Assembly (NCBI RefSeq): GCF_000372745.1
Contig: NZ_KB889668.1
Span: forward strand, 62,204-126,203
From: Embleya scabrispora DSM 41855
Lineage (GTDB): Bacteria; Actinomycetota; Actinomycetes; Streptomycetales; Streptomycetaceae
Length of the DNA stretch: 64,000 bases
Direction: 5' to 3'
Of this stretch, positions 24,782 to 36,008 are shown in pieces. A model generated the notes under the pieces. That model did no database searches and had not been told where the DNA came from. It was given only the letters and a program-made list of their open reading frames with translations. The position numbers were made by a program, and so were the translations under genes. The stretch's first letter is position 1. Every line of letters starts with the position of its first letter.

Positions 24782-27700
24782 ATGAGTCCAACCGCCTTCC
24801 CAGCACTCGATCCGGCCGCATCCCTGGCCGCTCCGGTCGATGCCCGGATCGATCAATCGCCCGCGTCGATCGCTCTGATCGCCGGCGAACACCGGCTCTC
24901 CTACCGCGAGTTGGGCGCGCAGGCCGATCTGGTCGGGGCGCGCCTGGCGGCGGCCGGGGTGACCAAGGGCGATCTGGTCGGCGTCTGCCTGCCGCGCACC
25001 CCGCACCTGGTCGCGACGCTGATCGCGGTGCTGCGCGCGGGCGCCGCGTATGTCCCGCTGGACCCGGAGTACCCACGCGAGCGCCTGGAATGGGTGATCG
25101 GCGACGCGCGGGCTCCCCTCGTGGTCACCGACCGCGCGCACGAGCACCTGCTCGCCGGCGCGACGGCCGGCCTCGTGTACGTCGACGCCGAGCCGCCCAC
25201 CGACGTGCGGCCGGCCCGGGCGCACACCGGTCCGGACGATCTCGCCTATGTGCTCTACACCTCCGGTTCCACCGGCCGTCCCAAGGGCGTTCGGGTGACC
25301 CACCGGGGGGTCACCGCGATGCTGCGCTGGGCGGCCGACACCTACCGGCCGGACCAGACCCGAGGGGTGCTGTTCGCCACCTCCGTGTGCTTCGACATCT
25401 CGGTCTACGAGATATTCTTCCCGCTCGCGGTCGGCGGCACGGTGATCCTGGTGGAGAACGTGCTCGCACTCGCCGACGCGCCCGCCCGGGACGAGGTCAC
25501 CCTGATCAACACCGTGCCCAGCGCGATCGCCGCGCTGTTACGCGGTCCCGGACTGCCGCCCGAGGTGCGCACGATCAACCTGGTCGGCGAGGCGCTCTCG
25601 CGTCGGGTCGCGGACCAGGTGTACGCGTGCCCGCAGATCGAGCGGCTGTACAACCTGTACGGGCCGACCGAGGACACCGTGTACTCCACCTGGGCGCTGG
25701 TGGATCGCACCGATCGCGCCGAGCCGCTGATCGGCATACCGCTGCCGGGGACCACCGCGCATGTACACGACGAGCACGGCGAACTCGCCCCGCCAGGCGA
25801 ACTCGGTGAGCTCTACCTCGCGGGCGAGGGCCTCGCGCAGGGCTATCACGGGCGTCCGGACCTGACCGCCGAGCGGTTCGTCACGGTGGCGGGGGAGCGC
25901 CGATACCGCACCGGCGACCTGGTCCGCCGCCGGCCCGACGGCGCGCTGGAGTATCACGGGCGAGTGGACCACCAGGTCAAGCTGCGCGGCTTCCGGATCG
26001 AACTCGGCGAGATCGAGGCCGTTCTGACCGGTCATCCGGGCGTGCAGGCCGCTGCCGTGGTGCTGCGCGAGGACGCGGCGGGACCCTACCTGGCGGCGTT
26101 CGTGCAGGGCGCCGACCGGACGCCCGAGCCCACCCCGGCCGAGCTGCGCGCGCATTGCCTGACCCGGGTTCCCACCTACATGCTGCCGGACGCGGTGACC
26201 GTGCTCGCGGACCTGCCGCTCACCCTCAACGGCAAGATCGACCGCAACGCGCTGCCCGCCGCGACGCGATCCCGGTTCCGGGACGCCGAGTTCGTCGCGC
26301 CGCGGACGCCGACCGAGACCCGGATCACCGAACTCTTTCGCGACGTGCTCGACGCCTCCCGGATCGGGGTGCACGACCCGTTCCTGGAATCGGGCGGCAA
26401 CTCGCTGCTCGCCGTGGGCCTGCTGGCCCGGATCGAGCGGACCTGCGGAGTCCGGATCCCGCTCGACGCGTTCTTCGCCGGCCCCACGCCGGCCGCCGTG
26501 GCCGAGCGGGTGGACCGCGCCGAGGGCACCACCACCTCGATGGTCGAACCACCGCACCGCGAACCGCACGGACCCGCGCTGGTGGGCACTGTGCAACGCG
26601 AGTTCACCATGCACGAGTTGGTCATGCCGGGCAGCGCGCTGTACAGCGTGCCGCTGCGGATCCGGGCCACCGGTGCCCTGGACGTGGCCGCGCTGGGCCG
26701 GGCGCTGGGTGAGGTGGTACGTCGGCACGAGGTGCTGCGCACCGCGCTGGTGCACCGGGCCGGCGAACCGGTGGCCGAGATCCGCCCGCCCTACCCGGTC
26801 GAGGTGCCGGTGCTCGACCTGCCCGACACGGCCGGCGACGGGGACGGGCACGAGGAACGCCTGGACGCCCTGCTGCGCGCCGAGGCGGCCCGGCCGCTGG
26901 ACCGGGCCGAGGGCCGACTGCTGCGCGCACTGGTCGTGCGGGTGCGCCCGGACCGGCACGAACTGCTGCTCACCGTGCACCACATCGCGATGGACGGCTG
27001 GTCGATCGGCCTGCTGCTGCGCGACCTGGCGCGTGCCTACCAGGGGTTGCCGCTCGCCGAACCGGCCCTGCAATACCGCGACGTGGCCGCCTGGGAGCGG
27101 CGCTACGCGGACGCCGAACACCAGGAGGCGCGGCGCTGGGCCGGCCGGCTGGAGGGCCTGGGCGTCGAACAGCACCTGCCCGGGGACCGCGACCACCCGG
27201 ACCCCTTCGACCCGAGCGGAGCCCGCCTGGCGCGCCGCCTGGATCCCGAACTCATGCGCGCCGCCGAGGAGTGGGCGGCGGGCGAGGGCGCCAGTCTGTA
27301 CATGACCCTGCTCGCCGCGCTCGGCACGCTCGTGCATCGCTGCACCGGCCGCACCGATCAGGCCGTACTGACTCCGTTCGCGGCCCGCCCGCTGCCCGAA
27401 CTGGAGGGCGTGCTCGGTCCGTTGCTCAACACCGTGCCGCTGCGATTCCGGATCGAGGGCACCGACACCTTTCGCGAGGTGGTGCACCGGCTGCGTCCGG
27501 TGGTGCTGGACGCGCTCGACCACTGTGCGCTGCCCTATCTGGAGCAGCTCCGCTTCGCCGGCGTGTTCGGCGCGGAGACCGCGACCCCCGTGTCGCAGAT
27601 CCTGCTCGCGGTCCAGAACCACCCGGGCGCGACGGTGGAACTGCCGGATCTGACCCTGGAGTTCCTGAACGAGGTGTGCAACGGCGGGGCCAAGGTCGAC

Positions 27701-29782
27701 CTGTCGATGTTCGTCGAGTTCCCGGCTTCCGGACCGCTGTTGTCCGTGGAGTATCGCACCGGACGCTACGACCCGGCCTCGATCGAGATGATCATCGACC
27801 ACCTGATGTCGGTACTGGCCGAGGCGCTGGCCGCGCCGGACCGGGCGATCGAAGAAACGATCATGCTCGACCCGGCCGAATATCGACGCCTGGTCGAGGC
27901 GGACAACCCGGCCCCGACCGCACGGCCCGAGCTGTGTCTGCCCGATCTCCTCGCGGAGCAGATCGCCCGCACCCCGCACAGGACCGCCGTCTCGGCCGAC
28001 ACCGGCACCCTCACCTACGCCGAACTCGACGCGGTCGCATACCGATTGGCCAATACCCTACGAGCCCACGGAGCCGAACGCGGCACCCTCGTGGCGATCG
28101 CCATGCCCCGCTCCCACCTGCTGCCCGCGGCCCTGCTGGGCGTCCTGCGCACCGGGGCCGCCTACCTGCCGATCGACACCGACCAACCGATCGCTCGCAA
28201 CCGGGCGTTGCTCGACGACGCCAAGGTCACCCTGATCGTGGGGGAGCGGGTACATGCGGCGGCCACCCCGCTGCTGACCGATCCCGGCTACGAGGTGGTC
28301 CTCGTGGACGGTCCGGAGGTCGCCGCCGCCTCCTCGGCGGCGCTGCCCGGACGGGCCGAGGTCGAGGACCCGGCCTACCTGATCCACACCTCCGGCTCCA
28401 CGGGTAGGCCGAAGGCGGTGGTGGTACCGCACCGGGCGATCGTGAACTTCCTGCTCTCGATGGCCGACCGGCCCGGACTCGGCGCCGCCGACACGATGGC
28501 CGCCGTCACCACGCTCACCTTCGACATCGCCGCGCTGGAACTGTGGCTGCCCCTGGTGGTCGGCGCCCGGGTCGAGATCGCCTCCCGGGAGACCGCCGGC
28601 GACGGAGGCAGGCTCGCCGAGTGGCTCGCCCGCCGCGAGGTGACGGTATGTCAGGCCACGCCGGCCACCTGGCGCATGTTGCTCGACGCGCACTGGTCCG
28701 GCCGGCCCGACCTGGTGGCGCTGTGCGGCGGCGAGGCGCTGACCGGGGACCTGGCCGGTGCCCTGCTCGACCGCTGCGCGCGGGTGTGGAACATGTACGG
28801 CCCCACCGAGACCACCGTCTGGTCCACCGTCCTGCGGGTGGATCGCGCGCATGCGGCACGGCGTGTGGTTCCGCTCGGTACGCCGATCGCCAACACCCGC
28901 GTGTACGTGCTGGACGCGGCAGGGCGGCCCGCGCCGGTCAACGCTCCCGGCGAGTTGTGCATCGCCGGCGCCGGGGTCGCACTCGGCTACCTCGGCCGGG
29001 CCGAACAGACCGCCGAGCGCTTCGTCCGTGACCCCCTGGGCCCGCCCGGCACGCTGATGTACCGGACCGGCGACATCGCCTGCCGGCGCCGCGACGGCAC
29101 GCTCGAGTACCACGGCCGCGCCGACCATCAGGTCAAGCTGCGCGGCTTCCGGATCGAACTCGGGGAGATCGAGGCCGCATTGACCGCGCTCGCGGGCGTC
29201 ACCGGCGCGGTCGCCACGTTGTGGCGGGGACCGGCCGGACCGACCCTGGTCGGCTACGTCGTCACCGAGACCGCGTTCGACGCCGCCGATCTGAGCGCCG
29301 CGCTCGGCGAACGGCTGCCCCGGCACCTGGTGCCCGGGGTGTTCGTCCCGCTCGACGCACTGCCGCTGACCCCGGCCGGCAAGATCGACCGGGCCGCCCT
29401 GCCCGAACCCCGACCCGGTGGCAGCGGCGCCCCGCCCGAGGGCGACTGCGAGGAGATCCTGGCCGAGATCTGGCACGAGTTGCTCGGTCCGGATCGCATC
29501 GGCCGCGACGACGGATTCCTCGCGCTTGGCGGCAATTCGCTTCTCGCGCTGCGCCTGATGGCCCTGGTGAGCGAACGCTTCGAGATCGACTTCCCGTTGC
29601 GCGTCGTCTTCGAGGCGCCGACCCTGGCTGCGATGGCCCGGCGGATCGAGGACATCCTGCTCAGCGAACTCGACCAGCCCGGTGCCCCCGCACAGCCCGA
29701 TGCCTTCGGCGACCCGGGCCCGCACGGCGACCGGGTCGGCCCCGGCACCCCGATCACCTCGACCGACCTGGACGCGGGATGA
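24782..29782 (+). CDS. Non-ribosomal peptide synthetase, loading module plus module 2 (A-T-C-A-T)
   Basis: 1666 aa. ATG 24782 is chosen for the AGGAG five bases before it and the short lead into the first adenylation (A) domain. A1 occupies about 20-520 (YTSGSTGRPKG at 159, YGPTED at 293, NGKIDRNAL near 483), and carrier T1 has SGGNSLLA with the phosphopantetheine Ser near 540. The C domain (about 590-1020) has an intact HHIAMDG at 733. A2 spans about 1060-1560 (HTSGSTGRPKA at 1202, YGPTETT at 1339), and T2 Ser is near 1586. There is no initial condensation domain, so this protein starts the chain. Specificity positions read by eye are DIYNNVLVY for A1 (closest to alanine codes such as DLFNNALTYK) and DILQLGMVW for A2 (glycine, DILQLGLIWK). 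No epimerase domain. Overlaps the next gene by ATGA. Confidence 0.95.
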   Translation: MSPTAFPALDPAASLAAPVDARIDQSPASIALIAGEHRLSYRELGAQADLVGARLAAAGVTKGDLVGVCLPRTPHLVATLIAVLRAGAAYVPLDPEYPRERLEWVIGDARAPLVVTDRAHEHLLAGATAGLVYVDAEPPTDVRPARAHTGPDDLAYVLYTSGSTGRPKGVRVTHRGVTAMLRWAADTYRPDQTRGVLFATSVCFDISVYEIFFPLAVGGTVILVENVLALADAPARDEVTLINTVPSAIAALLRGPGLPPEVRTINLVGEALSRRVADQVYACPQIERLYNLYGPTEDTVYSTWALVDRTDRAEPLIGIPLPGTTAHVHDEHGELAPPGELGELYLAGEGLAQGYHGRPDLTAERFVTVAGERRYRTGDLVRRRPDGALEYHGRVDHQVKLRGFRIELGEIEAVLTGHPGVQAAAVVLREDAAGPYLAAFVQGADRTPEPTPAELRAHCLTRVPTYMLPDAVTVLADLPLTLNGKIDRNALPAATRSRFRDAEFVAPRTPTETRITELFRDVLDASRIGVHDPFLESGGNSLLAVGLLARIERTCGVRIPLDAFFAGPTPAAVAERVDRAEGTTTSMVEPPHREPHGPALVGTVQREFTMHELVMPGSALYSVPLRIRATGALDVAALGRALGEVVRRHEVLRTALVHRAGEPVAEIRPPYPVEVPVLDLPDTAGDGDGHEERLDALLRAEAARPLDRAEGRLLRALVVRVRPDRHELLLTVHHIAMDGWSIGLLLRDLARAYQGLPLAEPALQYRDVAAWERRYADAEHQEARRWAGRLEGLGVEQHLPGDRDHPDPFDPSGARLARRLDPELMRAAEEWAAGEGASLYMTLLAALGTLVHRCTGRTDQAVLTPFAARPLPELEGVLGPLLNTVPLRFRIEGTDTFREVVHRLRPVVLDALDHCALPYLEQLRFAGVFGAETATPVSQILLAVQNHPGATVELPDLTLEFLNEVCNGGAKVDLSMFVEFPASGPLLSVEYRTGRYDPASIEMIIDHLMSVLAEALAAPDRAIEETIMLDPAEYRRLVEADNPAPTARPELCLPDLLAEQIARTPHRTAVSADTGTLTYAELDAVAYRLANTLRAHGAERGTLVAIAMPRSHLLPAALLGVLRTGAAYLPIDTDQPIARNRALLDDAKVTLIVGERVHAAATPLLTDPGYEVVLVDGPEVAAASSAALPGRAEVEDPAYLIHTSGSTGRPKAVVVPHRAIVNFLLSMADRPGLGAADTMAAVTTLTFDIAALELWLPLVVGARVEIASRETAGDGGRLAEWLARREVTVCQATPATWRMLLDAHWSGRPDLVALCGGEALTGDLAGALLDRCARVWNMYGPTETTVWSTVLRVDRAHAARRVVPLGTPIANTRVYVLDAAGRPAPVNAPGELCIAGAGVALGYLGRAEQTAERFVRDPLGPPGTLMYRTGDIACRRRDGTLEYHGRADHQVKLRGFRIELGEIEAALTALAGVTGAVATLWRGPAGPTLVGYVVTETAFDAADLSAALGERLPRHLVPGVFVPLDALPLTPAGKIDRAALPEPRPGGSGAPPEGDCEEILAEIWHELLGPDRIGRDDGFLALGGNSLLALRLMALVSERFEIDFPLRVVFEAPTLAAMARRIEDILLSELDQPGAPAQPDAFGDPGPHGDRVGPGTPITSTDLDAG

Positions 29783-32700
29783 CCGACTCCGAAGAGATCC
29801 TGACCACCCGTCCCGAGCCCGACCCGGCGCAGGCCCGCCGCGAACTGCTCCGTCGCCGGCTGGCCAGGGCGCGCGTGGCGACACCCCGCGCCGACCTGAT
29901 GCCCAGACCCGCGGACGTGCCCGCGCCGCTGTCCGCGGCGCAGCGCCGGATGTGGTTCCTCGCCCAGTACGAACCCGACGGCGCCGCCTACAACATGCCG
30001 CTCGTGCTGCGCCTGACCGGACGGCCGGACGAGGACGCGCTGGTGGCGGCGCTGACCGACGTGGTCGCCCGGCACGAGGTGCTGCGCACGGTGTATCCCA
30101 GCGTGGACGGGCACGTCTTGCCCACCGTGCACGACATCGACCAGTTCCGGGTGTCCGTGCTCGACCCGCCCGAGCCGGACGTGCCCGGGCTGCTCGCCGC
30201 CGAGGCCCGCCGCCCGTTCGACCTCGCCGGCGAACTGCCGATCCGAGCAACGCTGTTGCGTTCGTCCGAGCGGTACGTGCTGAGCGTGGTGCTGCACCAC
30301 ATCGCGGCCGACGCGTGGTCGGTGGGCGTGCTGTTTCGGGACCTGGCCGCCGCGTACACCGCGCGGTGTGCCGGGCATCCACCCGAACTCGCGCCGCTGC
30401 CGGTGCAGTACGCGGACGTCGCGTACCGGCAGCAGACCACGCTCGCGGCCGAGCTCGACCGGCAGTCGGCCTGGTGGCTGGCTCGACTACACGGTGCGTC
30501 CGGCACGGTGACCGTGCCGGTGGACCGCCCGCGTCCGGCCGTCGCGGACACCCGGGGCGAGCGGATCGAGGTCGCCTTCGGGGCGGAGCGCTCGCGGCGG
30601 ATCCGCGCTCTGGCCGAACGCACCGGCGGCACCACGTACATGGTGCTGTTGACCGCCCTGCAGATCGTGCTGGCCCGGTACAACGGGACCACGGACGTCA
30701 CGGTGGGCAGTCCGGTCGCCGGACGCACGCACAGCAGTACCGATGCCCTAATCGGCTGCTTCGTGAACACGTTGGCCATGCGTACCGACCTGTCCGGCGA
30801 GCCGACCGTGCGGGAGTTGCTGGGGCGGGTGCGGGAGCACACCCTGGCCGCCTTCGCCCGGCAGGAACTTCCGTTCGACAGGCTGATCGACGCGCTCGGC
30901 CCGGACCGGGAACTCGCCTACACGCCGCTGTTCCAGGTCCTGCTGAACGTGCACAACCAGGCGCCCGCCCGTCCCGTGCTGCCCGGTGTCGAGGTCGAGT
31001 GGTGCGACACGCACACCGGCGCCGCCAAGTTCGACCTGGCCATCGCCGTGCTCGACACCGCCCCCGGCGACGAACTGGTCGCCGACCTGGTCTGGCGCAG
31101 CGTGCTCTACGACGAGGCGACCATCCGACGGGTGTTCGGTCACCTGACCACCGTGCTGGACGCGATGAGCGCCGACCCGGACCGCTCGGTGGACGAGTTG
31201 CCGCTGCTGACGGCCGCCGAGGAGCGCCGGCTCACCGGGTGGAACGACACCGCCCGGGACTGGGACACCGAGGGTACGCTGCACGCCCTGGTCGAGGAGC
31301 AGGCCCGGCGCACCCCGGACGCACCCGCCGTGCGCGGTGTCGACGGCGAGTTGAGCTACGCCGAACTCGACGCGCGGGCGGAGGGGTTGGCACATCGGCT
31401 GCGCGGATCGGGAGTGGGCCCGGATCGGGTCGTCGGGCTGTTCGCGGAGCGTTCGGTGGCGCTGATCGTGGGCATGCTCGGCATCCTCAAGGCCGGTGGT
31501 GCCTATCTGCCGCTGGACCCGCTGTATCCGGACGAACGGATCCGGGCGCTGCTGGGCGCGGCCGACGCGGTCGCGGTGGTCACGACCGGGGAACTGCGGG
31601 CGCGCGTGGCCGGTTCGTTGCCGATCGTGGTACCCGAGGCGGGCCCTGCGGCTCCGGAGGGCAGCGGGCCGGTCACCTCGGCTGCCCCGATTGTCCCGGG
31701 CGCCTCGGCCGCCTCGGGCACGGAGGCAGGGCCCGGCAACCTCTGCTACGTGTTGTTCACGTCCGGGTCCACCGGCACCCCCAAGGCGGTGGCCGTCGAG
31801 CATCGCAATTACCGCAACTACCTGTCCGGCCTGCGCGAGCGGGTGGGTCCGGGGCGCGCGGCCGACGGGCGGCCGTGGAACTGGGCGCTGGTTTCCACCT
31901 TCGCCGCCGACCTGGGCACCACCAATGTGTTCGGCGCGCTCACCGGCGGTGGGTGTCTGCACCTGTTGACCCGGGAGCAGGCCACCGATCCGGACGCGTT
32001 CGCCCGGTATCTGCGCGCCCATCAAATCGATGCGATGAAGTTGGTGCCCAGCCACCTGGAGGGCCTGGCCGCGCTCGGCGACCGGCTCGCCGAGGTGCTT
32101 CCGCGTGAGCTGTTGATCTGTGCGGGCGAGCCGCTGCGCGCCGATCTGGTGGACCGGATCCGAGCGGCCCGACCGGAGTTGACGCTGCACAACCACTACG
32201 GGCCGACCGAGACCACGGTGTCGATGCTCGGCGCACCGGTTTCGGCCGTGCCGGCCGGCGCGGCGAGTGCGCTGCTGGGACTGCCGTTCGGCAACGTCGG
32301 CGCGCATGTGCTGGACGGGCACGGCCGCGAGTTGCCGGTGGGTGTGCCGGGCGAGTTGTACGTGACCGGGGCCGGGTTGGCCCGCGGCTACCTGGGTCGG
32401 CGGGAGCTGACCGCGGAGCGCTTCGTCGAGTGGGCCGGGCGGCGCGCGTATCGCACCGGCGACCTGGTCCGGCGGCGTCCCGATGGCCTGATCGAGTTCC
32501 TCGGCCGGGCCGATCACCAGGTCAAGATCCGCGGCTTCCGGGTCGAGATCGGCGAGGTCGAGGCCGAACTGGCCGCGCAGCCGGGTGTCCGCGAGGCGAT
32601 CGTGGTGGCCCGCGGCGAAGGGGCGGCGCGCAAGCTGGTCGGCTATGTGGTCGCGGACCCGAGCGCCGAGGTGGACGGCGCCGCGATTCGGGCAGCCACC

Positions 32701-35262
32701 CGGGCCCGGCTGCCCGACTACATGGTGCCCTCGGCGGTGCTCGTGCTGGACGCGCTGCCGCTGACCGGTGCGGGCAAGGTGGACCGGGCGGCACTGCCGG
32801 CGCCCGAGCTCGCACCGGTCGAGACCGGCCACATGGAGCCCGACACCGCGACCGAGGCGGTGGTGGGCGCGGCGTTCGCCGAGGTGTTGGGCACGACCGG
32901 GGTCGGTGCGACCGACGACTTCTTCGCGCTGGGCGGCGACAGCTTCTCCGCCGTCCGGGCGGTTCGCACGATCGGTCGCGGCCTGTCCGTCATCGACCTG
33001 TTCCAACGGCCCACCGTGCGCGAACTCGCCGCCCTGCTCGACGAACGCGCCGGCGAACCGGATGCGGCGAAGCGTCCGCGCACGCTGCTGCACCGGCTCA
33101 CCAAGGACGCCGGGCCGACCACGCTGACCCTGGTCTGTGTGCCGTACGGCGGCGGCAGTCCGATCACCTTCCAACCGCTGGCCGACGCACTGCCCGACCG
33201 ACACCGGTTGTACGCGGTCGAGTTGCCCGGCCACGATCCCAGTCGGCCGGAGGAGGAACCCGAGCCGCTGGAGGAGCTGGCCGATCGGCTGACCGCGCAG
33301 ATCACCGAGCGGATCAGCGGCCCGATCCTGCTCTACGGGCACTGCCTGGGCGGCGCGCTCGCGACCGCGCTGGCCGGCCGGCTGGAGGCGGCCGGTGCCG
33401 AGCTGAGCGGCGTCGCGCTGGGCGGCACCTTCCCGGCCGCACGATTGCCGGGCCGGTTCGCCGAGTGGGTGGCCAGGCGGTTGCCCGGCGACCGGCTGCT
33501 CTCCGACCGTGCCTACCTCGACTACCTGCGCGCGATGGGCGGTTTCACCGACGTCTACGACGACGCCGAACAGCGATACCTGATCCGGGCGTTGCGACAC
33601 GACGTGCGGCAGGCCGAGGACTTCTACACGCGCGCCTACGGTGACGAGCGGCCGGCGCCGGTGGCCGCGCCGATCCTGTGCGTGGTGGGCGACAAGGACC
33701 GGGCGACGCTGCTGTACGAGGAACGCTACGCCGAATGGGAGCACTTCGGTCCACGGGTCGAGTTGGCGGTGATCCCGCGCGCCGGCCACTACTTCCTCAA
33801 GCACCAGGCCGTCGAACTGGCCCGGGTGTTGAGCCGTTGGTCGGCGGGTCCCACACCGGCGGCCGAGCGGCCGAGCGCGCGGCCGGCCTCGGCACGGCCG
33901 AACCTGGCCACCTTCGCGAAGGTGGCGGGCGGACAGTTCGTGTCGATGATCGGCACCGCGCTGTCCACGTTCGCGCTCGGGGTGTGGGTCTATCTGCAGA
34001 CGGGTTCGGCCTTCGACTTCGCGATGATCTCGGTCGCCGCGGTGCTGCCCGCGGTGTTGTTGCTGCCGATCGCGGGCGCGGTCGCGGACCGGGTGGACCG
34101 GCGGCGGATCATGATCGTCACCGATACCGTGGCCGCGGCCGGGATGCTTTCGTTGGGTGTGTTGTTGTGGACCGATCAGCTGCACCTGTGGCATGTGTAC
34201 GTGGTGGCGTGCGTCGGGTCGATCTGCAACGCGTTCCAACGACCCGCCTACATCGCGGCGATCGCCCAACTGGTGCCCAAGCGCTATCTGGGTCAGGCCA
34301 ACGGACTGGCCCAACTGGGCACCGGGTCCGGTGACATGCTCGCCGCGCTGGCCGGCGGCGTGCTGGTGGCGGCGGTCGGGTTGCACGGTGTGGTGCTGTT
34401 CGACATGGCCACGTTCCTGATCGGGGTGACCGTTCTGCTGCGGGTGCGCTTCCCGGACGCCCTGTTCGAAAAGCGCGAGGAGCCGCTGCTGCGCGAAGTG
34501 GTCACCGGGTGGCGGTACATCGTGCGCCGGCGCGGACTGGTGGCGATGGTGGTCTTCTTCGTGGTGTTCAACTACCTCTTCGCGGTGGCCACCGTGCTGG
34601 TCACGCCGATGGTGTTGGCCGACGGCTCGGCGGTGACGCTGGGCGTGGTCACCGCGTTCGGCGGGGTGGGCGCGGTGCTGGGCGCGCTGGTGATGGCGCT
34701 GTGGGGCGGGACCGCCCGGCGGGCCACCGGCATGATCGGCTTCACCTCGGTGGTCGGCCTGGCCGCGGTGTTCGCGGGCAGTCGGCCCGAACCGGTGTTC
34801 GTCGCGCTCGGGTTGTTCGTGTTGTGGGCGGCACTGATGATCCTGAACTCGCACTGGATGGCCCTGATCCAGACCAAGGTCGGGATGGAGTTGCAGGGTC
34901 GGGTGCTGGCCACCAATCAGATGTTGGCGATGTCGATGATGCCGCTGGGCTTCGTGACCGCCGGCCCGCTCGCGGACCGGGTCTTCGAGCCGCTGCTGCG
35001 CTCCGACGGCGCGCTCGCCGGTTCGGTGGGCGTGGTGCTGGGCACCGGACCCGGCCGCGGCACCGGCCTGTTGCTGGTCCTGGTCGGTCTGGCGCTGGGC
35101 GTGTGGGGCCTGCTGGGATTGTGGTACCGGCCGCTGAGTCGGATGGAGGACGCGTTGCCGGACGCGATCCCGGACGTGGAGATCGGCGACAAGGACACGA
35201 TCCAGGCGGAGGCGGACCGGCGGTTGGCCCGCGTGGGGGAGACGGGCCTGCCGGTGTCCTGA
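29779..35262 (+). CDS. NRPS terminal module fused to an MFS exporter (C-A-T-TE-MFS)
   Basis: 1827 aa, ATG overlapping the previous stop. A docking-like Arg-rich N-terminus is followed by C (about 50-480) with HHIAADAW at 173, where the usual Gly after Asp is Ala. A3 spans about 505-1020 (FTSGSTGTPKA near 660, YGPTETT near 807, AGKVDRAAL near 998), and T3 has LGGDSFSA with Ser near 1055. The thioesterase (about 1110-1355) has GHCLGG, so the nucleophile is Cys1189 instead of Ser, with Asp near 1304 and His near 1336. From about 1375 to 1785 a complete 12-helix MFS protein of the EntS-like group follows (GGQFVSMIGTALSTFALGVW), including the DRVDRRR loop between helices 2 and 3. A3 positions read DLTKIAHVS, similar to Asp/Asn codes. 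Synthesis, release and export are thus on one chain. No MbtH or PPTase gene is nearby. Confidence 0.95.
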   Translation: MTDSEEILTTRPEPDPAQARRELLRRRLARARVATPRADLMPRPADVPAPLSAAQRRMWFLAQYEPDGAAYNMPLVLRLTGRPDEDALVAALTDVVARHEVLRTVYPSVDGHVLPTVHDIDQFRVSVLDPPEPDVPGLLAAEARRPFDLAGELPIRATLLRSSERYVLSVVLHHIAADAWSVGVLFRDLAAAYTARCAGHPPELAPLPVQYADVAYRQQTTLAAELDRQSAWWLARLHGASGTVTVPVDRPRPAVADTRGERIEVAFGAERSRRIRALAERTGGTTYMVLLTALQIVLARYNGTTDVTVGSPVAGRTHSSTDALIGCFVNTLAMRTDLSGEPTVRELLGRVREHTLAAFARQELPFDRLIDALGPDRELAYTPLFQVLLNVHNQAPARPVLPGVEVEWCDTHTGAAKFDLAIAVLDTAPGDELVADLVWRSVLYDEATIRRVFGHLTTVLDAMSADPDRSVDELPLLTAAEERRLTGWNDTARDWDTEGTLHALVEEQARRTPDAPAVRGVDGELSYAELDARAEGLAHRLRGSGVGPDRVVGLFAERSVALIVGMLGILKAGGAYLPLDPLYPDERIRALLGAADAVAVVTTGELRARVAGSLPIVVPEAGPAAPEGSGPVTSAAPIVPGASAASGTEAGPGNLCYVLFTSGSTGTPKAVAVEHRNYRNYLSGLRERVGPGRAADGRPWNWALVSTFAADLGTTNVFGALTGGGCLHLLTREQATDPDAFARYLRAHQIDAMKLVPSHLEGLAALGDRLAEVLPRELLICAGEPLRADLVDRIRAARPELTLHNHYGPTETTVSMLGAPVSAVPAGAASALLGLPFGNVGAHVLDGHGRELPVGVPGELYVTGAGLARGYLGRRELTAERFVEWAGRRAYRTGDLVRRRPDGLIEFLGRADHQVKIRGFRVEIGEVEAELAAQPGVREAIVVARGEGAARKLVGYVVADPSAEVDGAAIRAATRARLPDYMVPSAVLVLDALPLTGAGKVDRAALPAPELAPVETGHMEPDTATEAVVGAAFAEVLGTTGVGATDDFFALGGDSFSAVRAVRTIGRGLSVIDLFQRPTVRELAALLDERAGEPDAAKRPRTLLHRLTKDAGPTTLTLVCVPYGGGSPITFQPLADALPDRHRLYAVELPGHDPSRPEEEPEPLEELADRLTAQITERISGPILLYGHCLGGALATALAGRLEAAGAELSGVALGGTFPAARLPGRFAEWVARRLPGDRLLSDRAYLDYLRAMGGFTDVYDDAEQRYLIRALRHDVRQAEDFYTRAYGDERPAPVAAPILCVVGDKDRATLLYEERYAEWEHFGPRVELAVIPRAGHYFLKHQAVELARVLSRWSAGPTPAAERPSARPASARPNLATFAKVAGGQFVSMIGTALSTFALGVWVYLQTGSAFDFAMISVAAVLPAVLLLPIAGAVADRVDRRRIMIVTDTVAAAGMLSLGVLLWTDQLHLWHVYVVACVGSICNAFQRPAYIAAIAQLVPKRYLGQANGLAQLGTGSGDMLAALAGGVLVAAVGLHGVVLFDMATFLIGVTVLLRVRFPDALFEKREEPLLREVVTGWRYIVRRRGLVAMVVFFVVFNYLFAVATVLVTPMVLADGSAVTLGVVTAFGGVGAVLGALVMALWGGTARRATGMIGFTSVVGLAAVFAGSRPEPVFVALGLFVLWAALMILNSHWMALIQTKVGMELQGRVLATNQMLAMSMMPLGFVTAGPLADRVFEPLLRSDGALAGSVGVVLGTGPGRGTGLLLVLVGLALGVWGLLGLWYRPLSRMEDALPDAIPDVEIGDKDTIQAEADRRLARVGETGLPVS

Positions 35263-35339: not shown

Positions 35340-36008
35340 CTACCCCGTGCGCGGGTGCGGCGGCGAGGCCGCCAGCGGCAGCAGGATCTCGTCGATCAGG
35401 CGGGTCAACAGGGGTGGGTCGACCGGGCGTTCGGCGAAGACCGTCTGATAGAAGGCCATCGAGGGCAGCACCAGCGCGAGCAGGTCCAGGTCCCGATCCG
35501 GGTGCACCTCGCCGCGCTCGCGGCCGCGGGCCAACAGCGGTTGCAGGAGGCGCTGCCACTCGGTGAGAAAGCGCTCGCGCACGATCTCGGCCAACTCCGG
35601 ATTGCCGGGCAGGATCGGCAGCAGGGCCACCACCGCGCGGGCGTGCGACTCGTCGATGTGCTCGGCGGCGCCGGCCAGCATCGTGATCAGGTCGCCGCGC
35701 AGGCTGCCGGTGTCGGGCACGGCCTCGGTCGAATCGGCGCCGGCGCACAGCGCGGCCTCCGCGATCAGCGCCTCCTTGGAGGGCCAGCGTCGGTACAGCG
35801 TGGCCTTGCCGGCGCGGGCGCGGGTGGCCACGGCGTCCATGGTCAGCCGGTCGTAGCCGATCTCGATGAGCACATCCAGCGCCGCGCGCATGATCTGCGC
35901 GTCCCGATGAGCGTCCCGCGGTCGACCACCGCGTCCGGCCGGCGCGGCGGCGGGGCGGCGCAGGGCGTCGACGGCGGCCGAAGTCTTGTCGACCTCGGTG
36001 TCCGGCAT
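35340..36008 (-). CDS. TetR-family regulator
   Basis: 222 aa. The helix-turn-helix is at about 45-75 (LTMDAVATRARAGKATLYRR, then WPSKEALI), with an effector/dimer domain of typical length behind. The first 30 residues are an Ala/Pro-rich arm ending GRGGRPRDA. It is divergent from the yceI-like gene, and a perfect 12-base palindrome sits over the promoter of that gene. Its stop faces the NRPS stop, so it could also be a pathway regulator, but adjacency to the NRPS is convergent and gives no direct evidence. Confidence 0.92.
   Translation of the reverse strand: MPDTEVDKTSAAVDALRRPAAAPAGRGGRPRDAHRDAQIMRAALDVLIEIGYDRLTMDAVATRARAGKATLYRRWPSKEALIAEAALCAGADSTEAVPDTGSLRGDLITMLAGAAEHIDESHARAVVALLPILPGNPELAEIVRERFLTEWQRLLQPLLARGRERGEVHPDRDLDLLALVLPSMAFYQTVFAERPVDPPLLTRLIDEILLPLAASPPHPRTG

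Follow-up and report, generated by a model that had tools for sequence, protein, structure and literature searches.

The route by which peptide antibiotics and siderophores pass from the megasynthase to the outside has rarely been studied directly, because synthesis and export reside on separate proteins. A preliminary description of the 64,000 nucleotide stretch of Embleya scabrispora DSM 41855 DNA analysed here (the window) had claimed that a terminal NRPS module, a cysteine thioesterase (TE) and an MFS exporter lie on one polypeptide. This raises the questions of whether the gene is continuous, how often such fusions occur and what the attached transporter would do at the end of an assembly line.

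The fusion gene and its operon

Positions 29779-35262 of the forward strand hold a single open frame of 1827 amino acids without an internal stop. A Pfam domain search, proposed in the preliminary description as a check, returned the five expected domains in order, and together with NCBIfam it gives the arrangement condensation (C), adenylation (A), carrier (T), TE and MFS, as had been claimed. The features of the locus are:

24782..29782, + strand: upstream NRPS gene, A-T-C-A-T, two modules; likely ATG start after AGGAG
29779..35262, + strand: NRPS-TE-MFS fusion gene, 1827 aa; ATGA overlap with the upstream NRPS gene
29923..31233, + strand: condensation domain, residues 49-485 (Pfam); motif HHIAADA
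31294..32778, + strand: adenylation domain, residues 506-1000; code DLTKIAHVSK, predicted Asp-like
32866..33039, + strand: carrier (T) domain, PP-binding, residues 1030-1087 (Pfam); GGDS phosphopantetheine site
33127..33837, + strand: type I thioesterase, residues 1117-1353 (Pfam)
33343-33345, 33697-33699 and 33787-33789, + strand: TE triad Cys1189, Asp1307 and His1337, aligned to the ObiF1 triad
33838..33912, + strand: TE/MFS linker, Pro/Ala-rich
33913..34983, + strand: full-length MFS transporter domain, residues 1379-1735; MFS_1, MFS_3, TIGR00900
34984..35259, + strand: C-terminal tail of the MFS part, mostly conserved among close orthologues
35340..36008, - strand: TetR-family regulator, convergent to the NRPS operon

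The synthetase half is a modular NRPS terminal module with C, A, T and TE domains and their core motifs in one frame. The carrier Ser and the HHxxxD motif of the C domain are intact, and the adenylation domain consists of an AMP-binding part (residues 506-872) and a C-terminal domain (residues 926-1000; both Pfam). The type I terminal modules EntF and SrfA-C agree with it in the identity and order of the four catalytic domains, whose core motifs are intact, but they end at the TE, whereas the window protein continues in frame into a full MFS domain. Its TE also differs from theirs in having a Cys nucleophile and an ObiF-like Asp position.

That an uninterrupted full MFS protein follows the TE is borne out by the profile matches, which place it at about residues 1379-1740, with a tail behind it. 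The Pfam MFS_1 match at residues 1383-1724 covers profile positions 2-346 of 347 and the TIGR00900 match covers positions 1-363 of 364; with MFS motif A (GxxxDRxxRR, residues 1433-1441), the domain belongs to the MFS family by sequence. Because its TIGR00900 score of 205 bits lies under the subfamily cut-off of 319.6 bits, we classify it on sequence grounds as a divergent branch of the TIGR00900 / MFS_3 type. Exporters of this type, which we take to be EntS-like, share the full-length profile and motif A with the window domain and are usually encoded by a separate gene. Twelve helices are implied by the full-length match to MFS families; an averaged hydropathy scan of the MFS domains did not resolve the helix count directly. 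Searching the solved structures with the MFS part gave no match, and an AlphaFold model of the TE-MFS part from a nine-sequence alignment was poor, with a pLDDT of 47 that is too low for geometry.

Nine close orthologues were found in other assemblies (72-92% identity), and in every one the TE/MFS junction lies in one frame, which excludes a frameshift or misassembly near 33850-33900. Eight of them (L009-L016) came from scanning a single genome for each species, are 78-92% identical over the TE-MFS half and belong to separate public assemblies, including the complete chromosome CP026498. The ninth (L017), on a complete Embleya plasmid, is 88.7% identical over the whole protein and also forms one frame.

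The longest open reading frame of the upstream NRPS gene begins at GTG 24578. Judged by domain content, this gene and the fusion gene are a three-module, two-gene system, so the small size given in the preliminary description holds. No tailoring gene was recognised adjoining the two NRPS genes and no TauD-family hydroxylase was found on the contig. Other neighbours are a GDPD phosphodiesterase gene upstream on the opposite strand, YceI and glycosidases. The loci of Kitasatospora and Streptomyces have just the two NRPS genes in common with the window and flanking genes are common only to Embleya loci; thus the two NRPS genes look like the unit. Embleya hyalina retains the TetR regulator and Embleya NBC_00888 retains it in part; it was not detected at the Kitasatospora/Streptomyces loci.

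Recurrence and history of the fusion

Using the MFS domain alone as query, we collected 47 fused MFS domains; among them are that of the window and three more copies with large frames from the same genome. In 45 frames (window included) all five domains are present and their order is the same, and one further frame is without the C domain as its contig begins inside the gene. Continuous homologues in related species, which the preliminary description had named as support, were thus found many times over, and the alternative that homologues are always split into two genes at the junction is refuted. Fused copies were detected in 11 of the 119 sampled genomes of the order and in 10 of the 198 sampled genomes of the class, where the window's own genome is included in both counts; one contig that ends before the TE is reached is also counted. 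Each other genome of the genus has several copies, and within the genus the score drops from 296 bits for fused to 68 bits for ordinary MFS proteins. The preliminary description had omitted this recurrence, with four copies in this genome, as well as the relation of the TE to ObiF.

The three further copies in the genome differ in their terminal adenylation codes: DMGEIGSVDK (Orn-like) in L076 (G000 C105:18500-29000), DFTKIGHVGK (Asp-like) in L077 (G000 C180:222500-233500) and DVWHVSLVDK (Ser) in L078 (G000 C180:41000-52000).

The window protein combines the same domain order in one frame with an MFS domain inside the fused clade. We regard the NRPS-TE-MFS fusions as a real, recurrent class of synthesis-and-export enzymes across actinobacteria. 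No paper describing this architecture was found in the open-access literature, which is not proof of absence. The individual parts are all known; what appears to be undescribed is a recurrent class that combines them in a fixed fusion, with a TE of the ObiF type. Public protein databases may already carry names for such NRPS-MFS fusions. Epsilon-poly-L-lysine synthetase (Pls) is a membrane-embedded NRPS-like enzyme that has transmembrane and tandem C-like domains of its own and neither TE nor MFS; like the window protein, it combines a synthetase with transmembrane segments in a single polypeptide.

A tree of 58 MFS domains (47 fused and 11 freestanding) joins the fused domains in one clade with support 95/83, present in 96% of bootstrap trees, and all 11 freestanding domains fall outside it. 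Because the fused domains form one clade, their phylogeny fits a single fusion event. In the TE tree there are two MFS-bearing groups, pointing to one or two origins. Both trees have the same deep split, separating the window type, L076 and L094 from the other 34. Across 24 non-redundant proteins the distances of the MFS domains correlate with those of the TE (0.78), T (0.76) and C (0.71) domains and far less with those of the A domains (0.28), and the simplest reading of these sequence comparisons would be that a single fusion came first and that adenylation domains were exchanged afterwards. The correlations are weaker inside the sister clade (TE-MFS 0.35, C-MFS 0.58), so that TE and MFS have not always been a strict pair.

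Of the 11 freestanding MFS relatives, the first seven to have their surroundings read are each close to NRPS domains. For the other four, which come from outside the class, the 12-14 kb retrieved contain no NRPS domain. The MFS family is therefore not exclusively tied to NRPS genes, and we dropped the idea that this branch is confined to them. One freestanding relative without NRPS domains nearby (L159, G346 C18:149500-163500) is 41% identical to the window's MFS domain; it comes from a 2.2 Mb genome of another class, and its first-look match shows one internal TAG.

On a plasmid of Nostoc sp. UHCC 0870 a related MFS gene begins 1 bp past a terminal NRPS gene, directly downstream as in the window but as a separate gene, and no TE match was found in that NRPS gene. 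This gene pair is a plausible picture of the unfused state. Within Actinomycetota the fusion may have a single origin, probably an NRPS gene adjoining its exporter gene. The TE-MFS part would then have persisted as a terminal unit for release and export that was reused as adenylation domains were exchanged.

Thioesterase type and predicted product

The description as a cysteine thioesterase is correct, as the nucleophile is Cys1189 in the sequence GHCLGG. Among the 46 fused TEs the nucleophile is Cys in 44 and Ser in two, and the Asp and His of the triad are present in all 46 at the ObiF1 positions. Cys1189, Asp1307 and His1337 align with Cys1146, Asp1254 and His1284 of ObiF1 (PMC6668435; chain numbering offset 20), counting along the printed alignment. 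A Gly occupies the site of the EntF-type Asp. The closest solved match of the window TE is ObiF1 (PDB 6n8e) with 149 bits, followed by the next match with 84 bits. By sequence, the Cys nucleophile, the later-position Asp and the His make it an ObiF/SulM-type TE, as in the synthetases of obafluorin (ObiF1) and sulfazecin (SulM, PMC11298585). ObiF1 differs in that its C-terminus is an MbtH-like domain and no transporter. The Cys-TE of ObiF1 was reported to form a beta-lactone, while its C-to-S mutant mainly hydrolyses (PMC6668435), and for ObiF and SulM the triad layout has been linked to the closing of a four-membered ring (PMC11298585). In TEs of this type the ring is closed with a beta-hydroxyl or beta-sulfamate group. 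Related TEs without an MFS domain share the triad layout and mostly have Cys, hence the layout predates the fusion or is independent of it.

The terminal adenylation code DTEDIGTIIK occurs only in L102 and L103, the same two fusions whose TE has a Ser nucleophile.

Substrate codes were read by alignment. The first A domain of the upstream gene has the code DIYNNVLVYK, which we take, weakly, to be Ala-like. Its second code, DILQLGMVWK, was read as Gly by comparison with DILQLGMIWK, and the terminal code of the fusion protein, DLTKIAHVSK, identical in 10 of 10 orthologues (window included), is predicted to be Asp-like by comparison with DLTKVGHVGK, listed for Asp/Asn (PMC12283262). The predicted peptide of the window is Xaa(Ala-like)-Gly-Asp. 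The sister proteins have terminal codes for Ser (16), the Asp-like DFTKxGHVGK (11), the Asn-like DLPKVAEVGK (four) and others (five), so that overall 16 of 46 terminal codes are Ser and 25 of 46 are Asp/Asn-like. We take the Ser, Asn-like and F236 Asp-like readings to rest on published codes. As most terminal codes are of these types, peptides of the class are predicted to end, as a rule, in a residue whose side chain is reactive.

Proposed function and alternatives

We consider it probable that the NRPS operon makes a short peptide which the Cys-TE releases, and that the fused MFS domain, acquired in a single fusion, anchors the assembly line and exports the product. In this scheme the two-gene, three-module operon would assemble the peptide and the ObiF-type TE would be joined to the exporter by a short flexible linker, and the MFS domain would tie the last part of the assembly line to the inner membrane face. 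The peptide would pass from the carrier domain to Cys1189 and leave it by hydrolysis or through attack by a nucleophile of its own; the MFS domain tethered to the TE would then export it, with the tether keeping the release step near the pump. MFS proteins have cytoplasmic N-termini, which would place the fused TE in the cytosol, as the chemistry requires; together with the covalent link, this is why synthesis and export may be physically coupled at the membrane. The membrane location, the identity and export of the product, the coupling of release to export and the release chemistry are what we infer from the locus.

Another reading, which we consider possible but unlikely, is that the Cys-TE forms a strained or reactive C-terminal ring and that the fused pump immediately expels the reactive product. 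The ring would be a beta-lactone on Ser in many sister proteins, and another intramolecular closure on Asp in the window. The closeness to ObiF1 in score and triad, the Gly at the EntF-type Asp site, the behaviour of the ObiF1 C-to-S mutant and the prevalence of Ser and Asp/Asn-like terminal codes speak for it. Against it, ObiF-like sequence does not prove the chemistry, and since most TEs of the same family without MFS are also of the Cys type, the Cys by itself is not tied to export. Moreover, the substrate of ObiF1 carries a beta-hydroxyl whereas the predicted Asp of the window does not. A beta-lactone needs a beta-hydroxyl, natural for Ser and not for Asp; for the window we regard hydrolysis or another intramolecular closure as the more likely release. 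A beta-lactone on beta-hydroxy-Asp was considered and is weakened by the contig having no TauD hydroxylase.

It is likewise unlikely, and slightly more so, that membrane anchoring or self-protection is the main role of the MFS domain, without specific coupling to release, the fusion being a convenience of co-expression. Closely related split arrangements exist. The linkers of the fused class are Pro/Ala-rich, with about 14 residues in the window's group; in the sister clade they are long and their length varies from roughly 24 to 130 residues, so that a fixed TE-MFS interface seems unneeded. Against this reading, motif A and many other MFS positions show conservation in 93% or more of the 47 fused domains, which argues that the pump is under constraint beyond anchoring and works as a pump.

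We regard as rather improbable the combined reading, in which one ancestral fusion gave rise to membrane-tethered assembly lines whose ObiF-type Cys-TE closes a reactive ring at the C-terminus of the peptide and hands the unstable product directly to the pump, so that it is never free in the cell. That two genes were merely joined by a missed stop or frameshift has a negligible probability, as apart from the split Nostoc relatives nothing favours it and the same frame and order recur in many independent assemblies.

With a natural family of many members that joins synthesis and export covalently, the coupling of release to export becomes testable. Some of the fusions are in two-gene operons, small enough to transfer and cut, and the fused MFS sequence can serve as a tag to find unexplored gene clusters. 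A fused relative (L018) lies on the megaplasmid pCLA1 of Streptomyces clavuligerus (1505581-1535049), a strain convenient for study. In low-complexity linkers of the sister group (L077-L108, e.g. L090 and L100) a WWLxGVSR-like motif recurs, possibly a docking element.
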